64,000 bases of DNA, from NCBI GenBank assembly GCA_035699745.1, contig DASSPH010000067.1, forward strand, positions 62,001 to 126,000, read 5' to 3'. The translations under genes and the position numbers were made by a program. Source of the stretch: Vicinamibacterales bacterium. GTDB lineage: Bacteria; Acidobacteriota; Vicinamibacteria; Vicinamibacterales; 2-12-FULL-66-21. The notes under the pieces were generated by a model. The model had not been told where the DNA came from and searched no databases. It saw only the letters and a list, made by a program, of their open reading frames with translations. Shown here in pieces: positions 8,438 through 23,920 of the stretch (the first letter of the stretch is position 1; each line of letters begins with the position of its first letter).

Positions 8438-9625
8438 TCATCCGACGGTCCGGGTCTTCCGCAGCCCGGCGATCTCCTCCTCAGTCAATCCGAGCTCTTT
8501 CAGGATTGCGTCCGTGTGTTGCCCCAACGCCGGCGGCGCAGTGCGAACGGACGCCGGCGTCGCGGACAATTTCAGCGGCGTGCCCAGCACGCGAATCGTC
8601 CCGGCGGAGACATGCTCCAGCGGCACGATCATCTCGCGCGCCGCGAGCTGCGGATCGCGCAGCGCTTCCGTGATCGTCCGCACCGCCGCGGCGGGCACGC
8701 CGGCCGCTTTCAGGGCGGCGAGGAGATCGTCGCGTCGCCAGGCCGCCAGCACCGCCGACAGCTCCGCGCGCAGGACGTCGCAGTTCGTCACGCGGTCCGC
8801 GTTCGTGCGGAAGCGCGGATCGGACGCCAGCGCCGGGCGTCCCAGCGCGGCGGCGAGCCGGCGGAACTGATCGTCGTTGCCGACGGACAGGACGAACTCG
8901 CCGTCGGCGGCGGCGAAGGTGTCGTATGGCGCGATCGACGGATGGCGATTGCCCATCCGCACCGGGGTGTCGCCGGTCGCGAACGCGCTCGACGCCTGAT
9001 AGCTGAGCAACGCCGTAATCGCGTCCAGCATCGCCACGTCGACGCGTTGCCCGCGTCCCGTGCGCCCGCGGGCGACGAGCGCCGCGAGTATGCCCTGGAC
9101 GGCGAACATGCCGGTGGCGATGTCTCCGACGGCGACCCCGACGCGGTACGGCGGACCGTCCGCGGCGCCGGTGATGCTCATGAGGCCGGCTTCCGCCTGC
9201 ATCATCGCGTCGTATCCCGGCTCGGCGCTGCGCGGCCCCGATTGACCAAACCCGGAAATCGAGCAGTAGACGATTCGCGGATATCGCGACGCCACCGTGG
9301 CGTAGTCGAGCTCGAGGCGCTCCATGGTTCCGGGGCGGAAGTTCTCCACGACCACGTCCGTCCGGCCGAGCAGCGCATCGACGACCCGCCGCGCGCCGGC
9401 GTGCTTCAGATCGAGCGCCAGGCTCTCCTTGTTCCGGTTGACGCTGAGAAAATACGCACTCTCCCCGCCGACGAACGGCGGGCCCCAGGCGCGGGTATCG
9501 TCGCCGCGGCCCGGCTGCTCGATCTTGACGACGCGCGCGCCCAGATCCGCCAGCTGCATCGTGCAGTAGGGGCCGGCGAGCACCCGGCTGAAATCCAGCA
9601 CCGTCAGGCCGTCGAGGGGCGTCAT
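8438..9625 (-). CDS. CaiB/BaiF family (class III) CoA-transferase
   Basis: The enzyme moves CoA between carboxylic acids through an enzyme-bound anhydride. The 395-aa length and the motifs DFSRVLAGPYCTMQLADLGA and VDVAMLDAITALL fit class III CoA-transferases. The Asp in GYDAMMQAEAGLMS is the predicted catalytic residue. The substrate cannot be deduced. No acyl-CoA dehydrogenase or racemase is nearby. Its ATG is separated by only 8 bp from the ATG of the divergent UGA-containing glutaredoxin-like gene. Confidence 0.9.
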   Translation of the reverse strand: MTPLDGLTVLDFSRVLAGPYCTMQLADLGARVVKIEQPGRGDDTRAWGPPFVGGESAYFLSVNRNKESLALDLKHAGARRVVDALLGRTDVVVENFRPGTMERLELDYATVASRYPRIVYCSISGFGQSGPRSAEPGYDAMMQAEAGLMSITGAADGPPYRVGVAVGDIATGMFAVQGILAALVARGRTGRGQRVDVAMLDAITALLSYQASSAFATGDTPVRMGNRHPSIAPYDTFAAADGEFVLSVGNDDQFRRLAAALGRPALASDPRFRTNADRVTNCDVLRAELSAVLAAWRRDDLLAALKAAGVPAAAVRTITEALRDPQLAAREMIVPLEHVSAGTIRVLGTPLKLSATPASVRTAPPALGQHTDAILKELGLTEEEIAGLRKTRTVG

Positions 9626-9633: not shown

Positions 9634-9882
9634 ATGGCCATGAAGATCACGGTCTACTCCGGCTCGCATTGACGCGCCTGCGACATGGTGAAAGAGTTTC
9701 TTTCACGCGAAGGATACGCGTTCGACGCGAAGAACATCGAGGACGACGACAGCGCCTACGACGAGCTGATGGCGCTCGGCGCCCGCGCGGTGCCGACGAT
9801 CGTGATCGGCAGCCAGGTCGTCACGGGTTTCGACCAGACGCGGCTGCGGGCGGCGCTGGCGGCTGCCGCCGGCGGATCGTAA
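9634..9882 (+). CDS. Probable selenoprotein: glutaredoxin/thioredoxin-like, UxxC active site (in-frame TGA at 9670-9672)
   Basis: Reading from ATG 9634 gives MAMKITVYSGSH, then an in-frame TGA, then RACDMVKEFLS and onward to TAA at 9882. The TGA occupies the first Cys of the glutaredoxin CxxC, giving U-R-A-C (U13, C16 from this ATG). All other family features are present: the beta strand KITVYS before the motif, the helix MVKEFL after it, the cis-proline segment AVPTIVI and the TGFD turn. An 8-bp hairpin with a GTT loop lies 23 nt after the TGA, as required for a SECIS. A start at ATG 9640 is equally possible. Normal calling gives only a 65-aa fragment from 9685 without the active site. The 3' end overlaps the homoserine dehydrogenase gene by 62 bp. 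A role as thiol-disulfide oxidoreductase is inferred. Confidence 0.85.
9688..9706 (+). promoter_or_regulatory. Candidate bacterial SECIS hairpin of the glutaredoxin-like gene
   Basis: GTGAAAGA pairs perfectly with TCTTTCAC around a GTT loop. There are 23 nt between the TGA and the apical GU, inside the 16-37 nt range used for bacterial SECIS elements. A G/U pair at the start of the apical loop is the known SelB contact in E. coli fdhF. The element lies inside the coding sequence, as bacterial SECIS elements do. Confidence 0.78.
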
Positions 9883-10897
9883 TCAGGTCGCTGAGCAGCG
9901 CGTAGGCGGTCTGCGTCAGGCTGCCGCTCAGCTGGCAGATCGCAATCTCGCCGAGCAGATCCGTCTGCAGCACGAGCGCGTTGGCCATGCCGCGCAGCCC
10001 GGCCAGCAGGTCGGTTTCCGGCAGTTCGACCGGCCGCACCGACATCGTCACGCGACCGCCGGCCGCCTGCGCCGACGACACCAGCCGCACCCGCGCCCCG
10101 CGGGCTTTCGCCGCCATCGCGATCCGCGCCGTCGCCGGGCCGATGCCCTCCCGATCCACCGCGCGCGGCGTGGTTTGCGCGCGCATCAGCACGTTGGCGA
10201 GCGCCGCGGTCTTCGCCGCGGCGTCCCAGCCGTCCACGTCGAGCGACGGATCCGCTTCCGCGATGCCCAGCGCCTGCATGCGCTGGAGCGCCGCGTCGAA
10301 GCCTTCCCCTTCCTCCAGCGCCGTCAGGATGTGGTTCGTCGTGCTGTTGATGACGCCGCGAAACCCGGTGATCCGAACCGCGGGCAGCGTCTCCCGCACC
10401 AGGTTGAAGATCGGCACGCCGTCCATCACCGCGCCCTCGAACAGAAACGATCGGCCGCGATCCTCGGCGAGGACGATCAGCTCCTCGTAGGCGAACGCCG
10501 CCGGACCCTTGTTCGCGGTGGCGACGTGGCAGCCGGCCTGCAGCGCGGCGCGGACGTGATCGATCGCCGGCTGTCCGGCGGCGATGTCGAGCGTCGTCGT
10601 CTCGATCATCACTTTCAGCGGCGCGTCGCTCGCGGCAAGCCTGCGGATCACGTCGAAGCTGTCGCCCGCATCCTCGCCCGGCGCGGCGAGCGGATTCCCG
10701 CTTTCCATCGAGGCCGCGAGCGCCAGCGCGTCGAGCCCGGTTTCGCGAACCAACGCGCCGTGGGAGCGCGTGGCGATGCCGACGATCCGGCAGTCGAGGT
10801 CGTAATCGAGCGAGAGCCAGTCGCGGCGTTCCTCGAGCAGGCGGGCGAACCGCCGGCCGACGTGGCCGAAGCCGACCAGCGCCAGATCAGCGCGCAT
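9821..10897 (-). CDS. hom: Homoserine dehydrogenase (short, ACT-less form)
   Basis: The enzyme reduces aspartate semialdehyde to homoserine for threonine and methionine synthesis. An N-terminal Rossmann motif GFGHVGRRFARLL is at residues 8-20, TTTLDIAAGQPAIDHV and CHVATANKGP form the NAD(P)/substrate region, and GFRGVINSTTNHIL is the family signature. The conserved fold ends at ALLSDLITI. The last 16 residues are a Pro/Ala/Arg tail encoded antisense to the end of the glutaredoxin-like gene. No ACT domain is present, so threonine feedback is unlikely. The start overlaps the aminotransferase gene by 11 bp, so the two are cotranscribed. Confidence 0.9.
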   Translation of the reverse strand: MRADLALVGFGHVGRRFARLLEERRDWLSLDYDLDCRIVGIATRSHGALVRETGLDALALAASMESGNPLAAPGEDAGDSFDVIRRLAASDAPLKVMIETTTLDIAAGQPAIDHVRAALQAGCHVATANKGPAAFAYEELIVLAEDRGRSFLFEGAVMDGVPIFNLVRETLPAVRITGFRGVINSTTNHILTALEEGEGFDAALQRMQALGIAEADPSLDVDGWDAAAKTAALANVLMRAQTTPRAVDREGIGPATARIAMAAKARGARVRLVSSAQAAGGRVTMSVRPVELPETDLLAGLRGMANALVLQTDLLGEIAICQLSGSLTQTAYALLSDLITIRRRQPPAPPAAASGRNP

Positions 10898-16486: not shown

Positions 16487-17932
<1,446 letters not shown>

Positions 17933-17981
17933 CGGCGCGAGCGTGCGCCGCCAGCGAGCCACGAGAGAACGTGCAGGGGAG

Positions 17982-18004
17982 TCCGAGGGGCGACGCCCCT
18001 CGGA
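17982..18004 (+). promoter_or_regulatory. Intercistronic hairpin masking the sufC Shine-Dalgarno
   Basis: TCCGAGGGGC and GCCCCTCGGA form a perfect 10-bp stem with a GAC loop. The last bases of the 3' arm belong to the GGAG (18002-18005) that lies 8 nt before the sufC ATG. The stem would therefore hide the ribosome binding site or act as an RNA processing or pausing signal between sufB and sufC. Confidence 0.6.
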
Positions 18005-18013
18005 GATGAACGA

Positions 18014-18763
<750 letters not shown>

Positions 18764-18790
18764 ACAGCCGAGAGCTGAGATCTGGACAAC

Positions 18791-20119
18791 ATGACGCAAG
18801 TAGCCGAAAAGCCGACCGCATTTGCACAAGCGATGGAAAAACGTCCTCACGGCGGTCCGCGATGGCTGGACGATCTCCGGTCGCGCGGGGCGGCGCGGTT
18901 CACCGCGCTCGGCATCCCCACGGTGCGGGACGAGGAGTGGCGCTTCACCAACGTGTCGGCGCTCAACTCGTTCGACTTCGCGCCGGCGGGGCCGATCTCC
19001 GGCGCCGCCGATCGGCTGACCGGGTTCGCCTGCATCGATGCGCCGGCGCGGCTGGTCGTGGTCAACGGCCGGTTCGACACGACGCTGTCGCGGGTCAAGG
19101 GGCTGCCCCCGGGCGTTCAGGCCGGATCGCTGGCGGTGGCGCTGAAGGACCATGCCGACGTGGTGCAGCGCTACTTCGGCCAGATCGCGGATTTCACCAG
19201 CCGCAGCTTCACCGCGCTCAACACCGCGTTCGTCCAGGACGGCGCGTTCGTCTATCTGCCCGACGGCGTGGTCGTCGACGCGCCGATCCACATCGTCTTC
19301 GTGACCGGGGCGGACGCCGCGACGGTCGTGGCGCATCCGCGGACCCTGGTGGTGGCCGGCGCGAACGCGCAGGCGCGGATCGTCGAGAGCTACATCGGCG
19401 TCTCGGGAGAGACCTACTTCAACAACGCGGTCTCGGAAGTGTTCGTCGGCGAGAACGCCGGCGTCGATCACTACAAGGTGCAGCAGGAATCGCTCGACGC
19501 GTTCCACATCGCCAGCCTCTACGCCCATACCTCGCGCAGCGCGCGCTTCTCGTCGCACTCCTTCGCGCTGGGCGGGCGGCTCGTGCGCAACGACGCGTTC
19601 GCGATTCTCGACGGCGAGGGAGGGGACTGCACCCTGAACGGGTTGTACCTCGCCGACCGCGAGCGGCTGATCGACAATCACACCACGATCGACCACGCCA
19701 AGCCGCACTGCGGCAGCCACGAGATCTACAAGGGCATCCTCGGCGGCTCGGCGCGCGCCGTCTTCAACGGCAAGATCATCGTCCGCCAGGATGCGCAGAA
19801 GACCGACGCCAAGCAGACCAACCGCGCGCTGCTCCTCAGCGACGGCGCGACGATCAACACCAAGCCGCAGCTCGAGATCTTCGCCGACGACGTGAAGTGC
19901 ACGCACGGCGCCGCGATCGGGCAGCTCGACGACGACGCCATCTTCTACCTGCGGGCGCGCGGCCTCACCTATGCCGAGGCGCGCGACATGCTGATCCACG
20001 CGTTCGCCGGGCAGGTGCTCGACGGCGTGCAGGTGGAGCCGCTTCGCGCCGCGCTCGAGGCGGAGCTGTTCGAACAGCTCGCCCGGGACCTGGCGGAAGT
20101 CGATTCGAAGAAGCCATGA
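18791..20119 (+). CDS. sufD: Fe-S cluster assembly protein SufD
   Basis: SufD is the SufB paralogue that pairs with SufB and SufC and helps iron entry. The N-terminal helical part (MEKRPHGGPRWLDDLRSRG, EEWRFTNVSALN) and the C-terminal beta-helix (VFNGKIIVRQDAQKTDAKQ, CTHGAAIGQLDDDAIFYLRA) are typical. The TGA stop overlaps the sufS ATG as ATGA, indicating translational coupling. Confidence 0.96.
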   Translation: MTQVAEKPTAFAQAMEKRPHGGPRWLDDLRSRGAARFTALGIPTVRDEEWRFTNVSALNSFDFAPAGPISGAADRLTGFACIDAPARLVVVNGRFDTTLSRVKGLPPGVQAGSLAVALKDHADVVQRYFGQIADFTSRSFTALNTAFVQDGAFVYLPDGVVVDAPIHIVFVTGADAATVVAHPRTLVVAGANAQARIVESYIGVSGETYFNNAVSEVFVGENAGVDHYKVQQESLDAFHIASLYAHTSRSARFSSHSFALGGRLVRNDAFAILDGEGGDCTLNGLYLADRERLIDNHTTIDHAKPHCGSHEIYKGILGGSARAVFNGKIIVRQDAQKTDAKQTNRALLLSDGATINTKPQLEIFADDVKCTHGAAIGQLDDDAIFYLRARGLTYAEARDMLIHAFAGQVLDGVQVEPLRAALEAELFEQLARDLAEVDSKKP

Positions 20120-21393
20120 CCCCCGACACCGTCGCGGCTCGCAGTGACGTTCGCGCCGGCGCGCAGCCCGGCGCCCGCTTCGACGTCGACCGCGTGCGGG
20201 CGGACTTTCCGATCCTGTCCCGCACCGTGCACGGCCGGCCGCTGGTCTATCTCGACAACGCCGCCACCACGCAGAAGCCGCAGGTGGTGCTCGACGCGAT
20301 CCTGTCGTACTACACCGGGATCAACGCCAACGTGCACCGCGGCGTGCACGAGTTGAGCGAGCGGGCCACAGCCGCGTACGAGGGGGCGCGCGAGCGCGTG
20401 CGGGCATTCTTCAACGCCGCCTCGACGCACGAGATCGTCTTCACCCGGAATGCCACCGAGGGGATCAACCTGGTCGCGCAGTCGTTCGCGCGGCCGCTGC
20501 TCGCGCCCGGAGACGAGATTCTGGTCTCGGCGATGGAGCATCACTCCAACATCGTCCCCTGGCAGATGGCGTGTGCCGCTGCCGGGGCGAGGCTGGCGGT
20601 GGCGCCGATCGACGACCGCGGCGAGCTGATGCTCGACGAGCTCGAGCGCAGGCTGACGCCGCGGACGCGGCTCCTGGCGATCACGCACATGTCGAACGCG
20701 CTCGGCACCGTCACGCCGGTGCGCGACATCGTGCGGCTGGCGCACGCCGGCGGCGTGCCGGTGCTGGTCGACGCGTCCCAGGCGGCGTACCACATGCGCG
20801 TGGACGTCCGCGATCTCGGCTGCGATTTCCTGGTGGCCACCGGCCACAAGCTGTACGGGCCGACCGGCATCGGCGTCCTCTACGGCCGCGAAGCGCGGCT
20901 CGAGGCGATGCCGCCGTTTCTCGGCGGCGGCGACATGATCGCCTCGGTGAGCTTCGAGGGCAGCACCTGGAACACGCTGCCCTACAAGTTCGAGGCCGGA
21001 ACGCCGCACATGGCCGGCGCGATCGGTCTGCACGCCGCCCTCGATTACATCGACGCCATCGGCTTCGATCGGATCGCGGCGCACGAAGCGGAGCTGCTCG
21101 CCGCCGCCACCGCCGCGCTGGCGGACATTCCCGGCGTGCGGCTGATTGGCACCGCGCGGCAGAAGGGCAGCATCGTCTCGTTCGTCATGGACGGCGTGCA
21201 TCCTCACGACATCGGCACCATCGTCGACCGCGAAGGGATCGCCATCCGCACCGGGCATCACTGCGCGCAGCCGGTGATGGAACGCTTCGGCGTGCCGGCG
21301 ACCGCGCGCGCGTCGCTGGCGATGTACAACACGGTGGCGGAGGTCGAGGCGCTGGCGCGGGCGCTGCGCCGGGTCCGGGAGGTCTTCGCCTGA
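20116..21393 (+). CDS. sufS: Cysteine desulfurase SufS (class II)
   Basis: SufS removes sulfur from L-cysteine to give alanine and an enzyme persulfide. YLDNAATTQKP starts the fold, ATGHKLYGPTGIG holds the PLP lysine, and RTGHHCAQPVMERF holds the active Cys on a short loop, the hallmark of class II enzymes. The first 25 residues are an unconserved extension. It overlaps sufD by 4 bp and sufU by 1 bp (TGATG). Confidence 0.96.
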   Translation: MTPDTVAARSDVRAGAQPGARFDVDRVRADFPILSRTVHGRPLVYLDNAATTQKPQVVLDAILSYYTGINANVHRGVHELSERATAAYEGARERVRAFFNAASTHEIVFTRNATEGINLVAQSFARPLLAPGDEILVSAMEHHSNIVPWQMACAAAGARLAVAPIDDRGELMLDELERRLTPRTRLLAITHMSNALGTVTPVRDIVRLAHAGGVPVLVDASQAAYHMRVDVRDLGCDFLVATGHKLYGPTGIGVLYGREARLEAMPPFLGGGDMIASVSFEGSTWNTLPYKFEAGTPHMAGAIGLHAALDYIDAIGFDRIAAHEAELLAAATAALADIPGVRLIGTARQKGSIVSFVMDGVHPHDIGTIVDREGIAIRTGHHCAQPVMERFGVPATARASLAMYNTVAEVEALARALRRVREVFA

Positions 21394-21836
21394 TGTCCGA
21401 CCTCGCGGACCTCTACCAGGAGGTCATCCTCGATCACAATCGGCGGCCGAGGAACTTCCACGCGCTCGCCGGCGCCAGCCACACGGCCGAAGGCTACAAC
21501 CCGTTGTGCGGCGACCGCCTGACCTTGTATCTGAAGCTGAACGGCGAGACGATCGAGGACGTGTCGTTCGAGGGGGCGGGGTGTGCGATTTCCAAAGCCT
21601 CCGCGTCGCTGATGACCGATGCGGTCAAGGGGCGGACGAAGGCGGAGGCGGAGGCGCTGTTCGCGCGCTTCCACCGGATGGTCACGACCCCGCCCGACCA
21701 GCCGATCGAAGAGATGGGGAAGCTGTCGTCGCTGGCCGGCGTTCGCGAGTTCCCCGTGCGGGTGAAGTGCGCGAGTCTCGCCTGGCACACGCTGAAAGCG
21801 GCGTTCAATGACGAACGCCGTACGTCCACGGAATGA
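21393..21836 (+). CDS. sufU: SufU-type sulfurtransferase / scaffold
   Basis: SufU takes persulfide sulfur from SufS through a zinc-bound Cys. The three conserved cysteines are seen at C39 (NPLCGDRLTLYL), in GAGCAISKASASLM and in VKCASLAWHTL. The insertion after the second Cys region that distinguishes SufU from IscU is present. It is coupled to sufS by a TGATG overlap. Confidence 0.94.
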   Translation: MSDLADLYQEVILDHNRRPRNFHALAGASHTAEGYNPLCGDRLTLYLKLNGETIEDVSFEGAGCAISKASASLMTDAVKGRTKAEAEALFARFHRMVTTPPDQPIEEMGKLSSLAGVREFPVRVKCASLAWHTLKAAFNDERRTSTE

Positions 21837-21872
21837 ACCAGACAGCCCGGCCTGCTGGTCGGGCGCTCAAGC

Positions 21873-22271
21873 ATGAAGAACCTTCCCATGATCCCCGAGC
21901 AGCCTGCGGATCTTCCGCCTGACGGTGGCAGCCAGCTGGAGGGTCTCGCGGCCGATCCGGCGAGAACGGAGGCCTTGCGCCCCGCCATTCACGCGGCGCT
22001 CAAGAGGGTTTACGATCCGGAGATCCCGGTCGACATCCTCGAGCTGGGGCTCATCTACGACGTGTTCGTCACCGCCGACGGAGTGGCGGCGATCAAGATG
22101 ACGCTGACCGCGCCGGCGTGCCCGGCGGCGCAGGTGCTGCCGGGGCAGGTCGCCGACGCGGCGAAGAGCGTCGCCGGCGTCACGGACGCGGCCGTCGAGG
22201 TCGTGTGGGAGCCTGCCTGGACCAGGGATCGGATGTCGGACGCGGCGAAACTGCAGCTGGGGATGTGGTGA
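21873..22271 (+). CDS. sufT: SufT / MIP18 (DUF59) Fe-S assembly protein
   Basis: The DUF59 domain spans residues 30-132: VYDPEIPVDILELGLIYDV, then MTLTAPACPAAQVLPGQV with the conserved Cys, and VEVVWEPAWTRDRMSDAAK. SufT proteins assist Fe-S maturation alongside SufBCD. The first 30 residues are variable. It lies 36 nt after sufU and 16 nt before the Rrf2 regulator. Confidence 0.93.
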   Translation: MKNLPMIPEQPADLPPDGGSQLEGLAADPARTEALRPAIHAALKRVYDPEIPVDILELGLIYDVFVTADGVAAIKMTLTAPACPAAQVLPGQVADAAKSVAGVTDAAVEVVWEPAWTRDRMSDAAKLQLGMW

Positions 22272-22287
22272 CGGAGAGGCGTTAACG

Positions 22288-22752
22288 ATGCTGCGACTCT
22301 CTAAGAAGGCGGATTACGCGCTGATGGCGATGAAGCACCTCGCCCGGAAGACCGACTCCGCGTCGGCCTCGACGAGTGCCCGTGAGATCGCCGAACAGTA
22401 CGACATTCCCATCGAGCTGATGGCCAAGGTGCTGCAGCGCCTCGCGCGCCACGGGCTGCTCACCTCGCACCAGGGCACGCGCGGCGGCTACACGCTGTCG
22501 CGCGCCACGACCTCGATCTCCGTCGCCGACATCATCCAGGCGATCGACGGTCCGCTGACGGTCACCGCCTGCTCCACGGAGGACGAGCAGTGCGAGCAGT
22601 TCGTCAAGTGCAACGTCCGCGATCCGCTCTGGCGGATCAAGGATCGGATTCTGTCCGCGCTCGCCGAGTGCTCGCTGGCCGAGATCTCCAGCGACATCCC
22701 GCCGCCGCCGCCCGAGGTCATGCCGATGACCCTGTCGCGCGGCACGCGGTGA
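22288..22752 (+). CDS. Rrf2-family regulator, IscR/SufR-like
   Basis: A winged helix (LSKKADYALMAMKHLAR, PIELMAKVLQRLARHGLL, GTRGGYTLSR) is followed by three cysteines, C95, C102 and C108, spaced as in cluster-binding IscR. The protein probably senses Fe-S status and controls the suf run. Unlike the usual order it lies near the end of the run, after sufT and just before iscS. A proline-rich tail ends the protein. Confidence 0.92.
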   Translation: MLRLSKKADYALMAMKHLARKTDSASASTSAREIAEQYDIPIELMAKVLQRLARHGLLTSHQGTRGGYTLSRATTSISVADIIQAIDGPLTVTACSTEDEQCEQFVKCNVRDPLWRIKDRILSALAECSLAEISSDIPPPPPEVMPMTLSRGTR

Positions 22753-22756
22753 CCAC

Positions 22757-23920
22757 GTGAAGCCCCTCTACCTCGATTACCACGCCACCACGCCGGTGGA
22801 TCCGCGCGTCCTCGAGGCGATGCTGCCGTTCTTCACCGAGCGGTTCGGCAATCCGAACAGCAAGCAGCACGCCTGGGGCTGGGACGCGCGCGACGCGGTC
22901 GAAGCGGCGCGGGCCCAGGTGGCGGCGCTGATCAACGCCTCTGCCGGCGAAATCGTGTTCACCAGCGGCGCGACCGAGTCGAGCAACCTCGCGCTCCGCG
23001 GCGTGGCGGCGGCGCGCGGCGACGGGCCGCGCCACGTGATCACGACCGCGATCGAGCACAAGTCGGTGCTCGACGTGTGCCGCGGCCTCGAGACCGCCGG
23101 ATGCGCGGTCACGATCCTCGGCGTGAACAGCGGCGGGCTGGTCGATCCGGCGGCGCTGAAGCGCGCGCTGCGCCCCGAGACGGTGCTCGTCAGCGTGATG
23201 GCGGCGAACAACGAGATCGGCACGGTGCAGCCGATGGCGGCGCTCGGCGCGATCGTGCGCGAGCACGGCGCGCTGTTTCACACCGACGCCGCGCAGGCGG
23301 CCGGCAAGGTGCCGATCGACGTGCGGGCGATGAACGTCGATCTGCTGTCGCTCACCGCGCACAAGTTCTACGGTCCCAAGGGCTGCGGCGCGCTGTTCAT
23401 CCGCAAGGCGCGGCCGCGGATCGCGATCGCGCCGCAGGCGGTCGGCGGCGGGCAGGAGAACGGCGTGCGTTCGGGCACCCTGAACGTGCCGGGGATCGTC
23501 GGTCTCGGCCGTGCGGCGGAGATCTGCCGCGTCGAGATGGCCGGGGAAGCGGCGCGCCTGAGCACGCTGCGCGACCGGCTGCTCCACGGACTCCGCGCCC
23601 GCGTGCCCGGCCTGCGCGTCAATGGCACGCTCGAGCAGCGGCTGCCGCACAACCTGCACATCAGCTTCGACGGCATCGAAGGAGAGCGCCTGCTGATGGC
23701 GCTCGGCGATCTGGCCGTATCCACCGGATCCGCCTGCGCCTCGGGCAGCCAGGCGCCCTCGCACGTCCTGCAGGCGATCGGCGCGACCTCCGACATGGCG
23801 GCCGCCTCCATCCGTTTCGGACTCGGCCGTTCGACGACCGAGGCCGACGTCGATTACGCGATCGAACGCGTCTCAGCCGTGGTCACGGCCCTGCTGGCAA
23901 CGACCTTGCTCTCGCACTGA
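22757..23920 (+). CDS. iscS: Cysteine desulfurase, NifS/IscS class I
   Basis: This is a second cysteine desulfurase. YLDYHATTPVDPRVLEAM is the class I start, TAHKFYGPKGCG holds the PLP lysine, and STGSACASGSQAPSHVL holds the catalytic Cys on the long flexible loop typical of IscS/NifS. It may serve tRNA thiolation or cofactor synthesis (including MoeB) while SufS serves SufBCD; that division is inference. The start is GTG at 22757, 4 nt after the regulator. Confidence 0.95.
   Translation: MKPLYLDYHATTPVDPRVLEAMLPFFTERFGNPNSKQHAWGWDARDAVEAARAQVAALINASAGEIVFTSGATESSNLALRGVAAARGDGPRHVITTAIEHKSVLDVCRGLETAGCAVTILGVNSGGLVDPAALKRALRPETVLVSVMAANNEIGTVQPMAALGAIVREHGALFHTDAAQAAGKVPIDVRAMNVDLLSLTAHKFYGPKGCGALFIRKARPRIAIAPQAVGGGQENGVRSGTLNVPGIVGLGRAAEICRVEMAGEAARLSTLRDRLLHGLRARVPGLRVNGTLEQRLPHNLHISFDGIEGERLLMALGDLAVSTGSACASGSQAPSHVLQAIGATSDMAAASIRFGLGRSTTEADVDYAIERVSAVVTALLATTLLSH

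Follow-up and report, generated by a model that had tools for sequence, protein, structure and literature searches.

A probable selenocysteine-containing glutaredoxin-like protein encoded through an in-frame TGA in an order of Acidobacteriota

Background

A glutaredoxin-like reading frame in a Vicinamibacterales genome is interrupted by a single TGA, which raises the question of whether this codon is a stop, an error or a codon for selenocysteine (Sec). The frame lies in the window, that is, the whole stretch of 64,000 nucleotides that was analysed. The original prediction, made from the letters of this stretch, was that the TGA joins the two halves of a selenoprotein and is followed by a bacterial SECIS hairpin. 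From comparative sequence evidence we estimate a probability of about 0.96 that the locus encodes an 82-residue thiol oxidoreductase of the glutaredoxin fold with Sec13 of a U-x-x-C motif as its catalytic residue. The TGA is very probably used as a Sec codon in the source organism, and redox activity of the product is likewise predicted.

Results

Gene, frame and fold

Translation with TGA as Sec (U) confirms an open frame at 9634-9882 with one internal TGA, and gives the product MAMKITVYSGSHURACDMVKEFLSREGYAFDAKNIEDDDSAYDELMALGARAVPTIVIGSQVVTGFDQTRLRAALAAAAGGS. The TGA occupies the first Cys position of the glutaredoxin CxxC motif and the second Cys is kept (U-R-A-C), as had been proposed. 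In-frame TAA and TGA codons lie immediately upstream of 9634, so the gene starts either there or at a further in-frame ATG (Table 1). The standard code leaves a 65-residue ORF at 9685-9882 in the same frame, and this ORF lacks the first strand and, as originally noted, the active site.

Table 1. Positions in the window of the predicted selenoprotein gene, its elements and its neighbours
Feature	Position	Strand	Evidence
Predicted Sec-containing glutaredoxin-like protein, 82 aa	9634..9882, start 9634 or 9640	+	TGA=U translation; Pfam Glutaredoxin 48.5 bits; AlphaFold2 pLDDT 88.9, glutaredoxin fold
In-frame TGA, codon 13, predicted to be read as selenocysteine	9670..9672	+	TGA in 34/34 distinct order-level genes; TGT/TGC in remoter homologues
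Putative resolving Cys16 codon (TGC) of UxxC	9679..9681	+	Cys in 34/34; invariant in alignment A2
Candidate bacterial SECIS hairpin	9688..9706	+	Predicted fold; locked rare codons; changes on both sides in 4/8 pairs, score equalled by 0/500 shuffles; bSECIS rules (PMC13188914)
CoA-transferase, CaiB/BaiF-like (named by inspection), divergent, 8-base gap to 9634	8438..9625	-	ORF; adjoins gene in most relatives
Homoserine dehydrogenase-like (name by inspection), convergent, 62-base overlap with selenoprotein gene	9821..10897	-	ORF; conserved neighbour

With C in place of U the protein matches the Pfam family Glutaredoxin (PF00462) well above its gathering cut-off of 22.9 bits, and its AlphaFold2 model adopts the glutaredoxin fold, which bears out its description as glutaredoxin-like. 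The closest PDB entry, both by sequence search and by Foldseek with the AlphaFold2 model, is 7c10, the glutaredoxin-1 of Clostridium oremlandii (E 7e-14 with the single sequence and 3e-22 with a profile; TM 0.85/0.93). Structures of NrdH are also among the best Foldseek matches. None of the NCBIfam models reaches its cut-off on this protein, including those for Uxx-star selenoproteins. The best match is the YruB-type model TIGR02196 (66.5 bits, curated cut-off 88.55), followed by NrdH, TIGR02194 (56.3 bits, cut-off 85.75), while the Uxx-star (seleno)protein model NF041212 scores 42.6 bits against a cut-off of 66 and UXX-star families 1-3 score lower still. Standard annotation is therefore expected to yield either the truncated 65-residue protein or nothing at all.

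The TGA codon among relatives

In a survey of 162 genomes of the same order, 41 matches with exactly one internal TGA were found in 38 genomes, with scores from 60 to 131 bits, and all matches without a TGA except one score 59 bits or less. The fetched loci of this order provide 34 distinct genes, including that of the window, and all 34 have both the TGA at the Sec column and Cys16. No Cys orthologue was found in the order. The sole copy without the TGA has CGA at this column (L037, G007:C40:36426-36599); its frame shifts past approximately residue 60, its hairpin is still intact, and judging from its sequence it is a decaying copy. Every intact gene examined in the order thus appears to be Sec-coding. 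Elsewhere in the phylum, some homologues have TGA at the Sec column and others TGC or TGT, so that the in-frame TGA aligns with Cys of homologues. The original prediction had proposed a search for such Cys codons in Acidobacteriota, and it is in the remoter homologues that they are found, with the TGA conserved in the relatives. This Sec/Cys pairing, as read from the alignment, matches what is expected of a selenoprotein family.

These data bear on two other ways of reading the TGA. If the TGA were a true stop in a pseudogene, or a sequencing error masking a Cys codon, a draft assembly would show just such a lone in-frame stop in one of its genes. The same codon, however, recurs across many assemblies, in 34 distinct genes that keep the flanking protein and the hairpin, and the copy that lost the TGA is the frameshifted one. 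We consider such an explanation extremely unlikely, and conservation leads us to reject it for the family. It could also be argued that the functional product is the 65-residue protein and that conservation upstream of it is incidental, since an uninterrupted standard-code ORF begins with the ATG at 9685. This Met18 is, however, mostly unconserved, most relatives having E, L, K, Q, R or W instead, whereas the first strand and the UxxC motif, both absent from the short form, are conserved. Conservation thus makes the short product scarcely credible and we reject it in favour of the full-length, Sec-containing protein.

A scan of named genome contigs found one relative, QHWT01000049.1, from an Acidobacteria gp6 MAG. 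In one distant homologue (L083, G166:C193:11186-11401) the TGA at the Sec column is joined by an in-frame TAG right after the hairpin (TTTCTTTCCTAG); a pseudogene or a sequencing error may account for this, or some other cause. Two genomes that have the main gene contain a second, more divergent TGA-containing match of 60-65 bits (G070:C586:5497-5709 and G073:C45:21237-21449), possibly a second Sec-glutaredoxin paralogue.

The hairpin downstream of the TGA

The predicted fold places a perfect 8-bp stem at 9688-9695 and 9699-9706 around the loop GTT at 9696-9698, with 15 bases between the TGA and the stem and 23 between the TGA and the loop; the perfect 8-bp stem, the loop sequence and the figure of 23 are as first described. 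In PMC13188914, the rules for a bSECIS are a loop of 3-9 nt, an upper stem of 4-16 bp, a G in the first two loop positions, a UGA-to-loop distance of 16-37 nt and an energy of -7.5 kcal/mol or lower. The hairpin conforms to these rules as given there, with its 3-nt GTT loop, 8 bp, 23 nt and -11.8 kcal/mol when 9670-9715 is folded. The outcome of the energy rule varies with how much sequence is folded, as this 46-base stretch has -11.8 kcal/mol and the bare 19-nt hairpin -7.1 kcal/mol. The folding energy is not unusual compared with shuffled sequences (z -0.79), and the evidence for a SECIS is therefore one of conservation rather than of energy. Over both strands of the window, a perfect 8-bp hairpin is found at a comparable distance after 12 of 1387 TGA triplets (0.9%).

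Conservation is seen in the first place in the choice of synonymous codons. The stem codons are nearly fixed on codons that are rare in this sequence of 69% GC. Leu23 is CTT in 32 of 34 genes, Ser24 is TCA in 33 of 34, Phe22 is TTT in 20 of 22 and Lys20 is AAA in 24 of 32, where usage in 14 window genes is 2.3% (CTT, of Leu codons), 1.7% (TCA), 7.7% (TTT) and 10% (AAA), although the genes compared are related by descent and probabilities calculated from such codons overstate their independence. Outside the stem, Leu45, Pro54 and Ala41 differ in synonymous codon choice among the genes. The second line of evidence is covariation. Of the cells in 37 distinct sequences, 95.9% are paired. Four of the eight pairs change on both sides, and the covariation score is unmatched by 500 shuffles or by any slid version of the hairpin; 9 of the 37 sequences have a broken innermost pair. 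Matched sets of stem changes include GTGAAAGC-GTG-GCTTTCAC, CGAAGGAGTTCCTTTCG and ACGAAAGAGTTACTTTCGT. The suggestion that this hairpin suits a bacterial SECIS is thus upheld by the locked codons and the covariation together with the rules cited above.

Machinery for Sec in the genome

The genome assembly, of 6.3 Mb and with a listed completeness of 100%, was searched for the Sec genes named in the original prediction, and all four are present above their cut-offs. Profile searches find selA (527 bits, cut-off 268), selB (352 bits, cut-off 242) and selD (347 bits, cut-off 125), and the Rfam model (61.8 bits, gathering cut-off 47) and ARAGORN agree in finding the tRNA-Sec (selC), with anticodon TCA. 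Across the order selA is nearly universal, and one genome that bears the glutaredoxin gene (G003, 57% complete) shows none, so the co-occurrence of selA and the gene says little.

A conserved full-length frame would also be seen if UGA were read as another amino acid, such as Trp, through a changed code or a suppressor tRNA. We regard this as highly improbable, because, of 14 window genes surveyed, 8 end in TGA, the TCA-anticodon tRNA that was found is the tRNA-Sec, and homologues carry Cys rather than Trp at this position; given the conservation we reject this reading too, and Sec is the residue that we assign to the codon.

A TGA also lies in frame in the selD gene of the same genome (L019, G000:C71:25763-26695), at the active site (...YSACAGUASKL, ACAGU), and selD appears to be itself a selenoprotein gene, as is known for selD from other bacteria. 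UGA decoding would therefore apparently serve at least one gene besides the glutaredoxin.

Neighbourhood and gene loss

At least one of the neighbours of the gene in the window is found nearby in all 34 order-level genes, and in none of the distant TGA homologues. In five relatives that lack the gene (G008, G001, G009, G025 and G026) the genes for the CoA-transferase and the homoserine dehydrogenase adjoin and no hairpin remains. This pattern is most simply read as that of a gene long resident at one site and cleanly lost in some lines. Because it is either present or cleanly absent at one fixed site, its loss is easy to trace. Elsewhere in the window, at 16487-23920, there is a run of genes resembling Suf-type Fe-S cluster assembly, which by inspection only can be named SufB-, SufC-, SufD-, SufS- and SufU-like, with an Rrf2-like regulator and a second cysteine desulfurase.

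Discussion

The in-CDS hairpin, which starts 15 bases downstream of the UGA, would work as a SECIS and so allow SelB and Sec-tRNA(Sec) to decode the codon. The catalytic mechanism we propose is carried over by analogy from the C. oremlandii glutaredoxin-1. In it, disulfides or oxidised thiols belonging to a partner would come under attack from the selenol of Sec13, and the resulting mixed selenosulfide would be resolved by Cys16.

The reductant of such a protein may not be glutathione. In the genome listed as 100% complete there is no match to the two glutathione-synthesis families tested, glutathione synthetase TIGR01380 and the fused TIGR01435, which makes a glutathione-independent redoxin plausible. 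Since NrdH is in addition a close model, a reductant resembling thioredoxin reductase seems likelier than glutathione. We therefore lean towards the view that this selenoprotein functions less as a glutaredoxin dependent on glutathione than as an NrdH-like redoxin that thioredoxin reductase would reduce; NrdH is its second-best NCBIfam match and is represented among its best folds. On the other hand, the best match is a glutaredoxin that has been described as glutathione-reduced (PMC7642778), and the search covered TIGR01380 and TIGR01435 alone among the routes to glutathione or other low-molecular thiols. More tentatively, we speculate that the group has been kept solely as a selenoprotein across an Acidobacteriota order that possibly lacks glutathione, with a reductant of the thioredoxin reductase type and a client possibly tied to its conserved metabolic neighbours.

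The locus adds a very well supported selenoprotein gene to the known Sec-glutaredoxin kind, and with it a group of selenoproteins from a soil phylum for which little of the selenoproteome has been described. As the hairpin is locked at the codon level, the group also provides a clean natural data set in which one SECIS varies within a nearly fixed protein. A glutaredoxin selenoprotein of Acidobacteriota is not named in the accessible parts of PMC13188914 or PMC1794560, and our literature search met no earlier description of this group, which does not prove that there is none.

Several known systems can be compared with the window protein. NF041212 and UXX-star families 1-3 comprise glutaredoxin-like relatives in which Sec is found at the same motif. 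Among the YruB and NrdH redoxins, the NrdH fold is similar and the solved members have Cys. Sec-glutaredoxin (UxxC) was already counted in 2006 (PMC1794560) and is among the experimentally verified prokaryotic selenoprotein families (PMC13188914). The window protein agrees with that family in scoring above the PF00462 cut-off and in having Sec first in UxxC, but its group is a separate, syntenic one from one Acidobacteriota order.

The nearest system is the glutaredoxin-1 of Clostridium (Alkaliphilus) oremlandii, cGrx1 (7c10, 7c12 and 7c13), a verified selenoprotein whose native residue 13 is Sec and that has been studied as U13C and U13C/C16S (PMC7642778, PMC4479559). It differs in belonging to another phylum, in the CPHC of the PDB construct as against U-R-A-C, and in its proposed client, a Sec-MsrA; a tandem pairing of Sec-glutaredoxin and Sec-MsrA in the C. 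oremlandii style is unsupported here, as the sole MsrA found in the genome of the window has no TGA. The two proteins nevertheless align without gaps over 75 residues at 44% identity and share Sec13, the resolving Cys16, the VKEFLS that follows the motif, and the fold.
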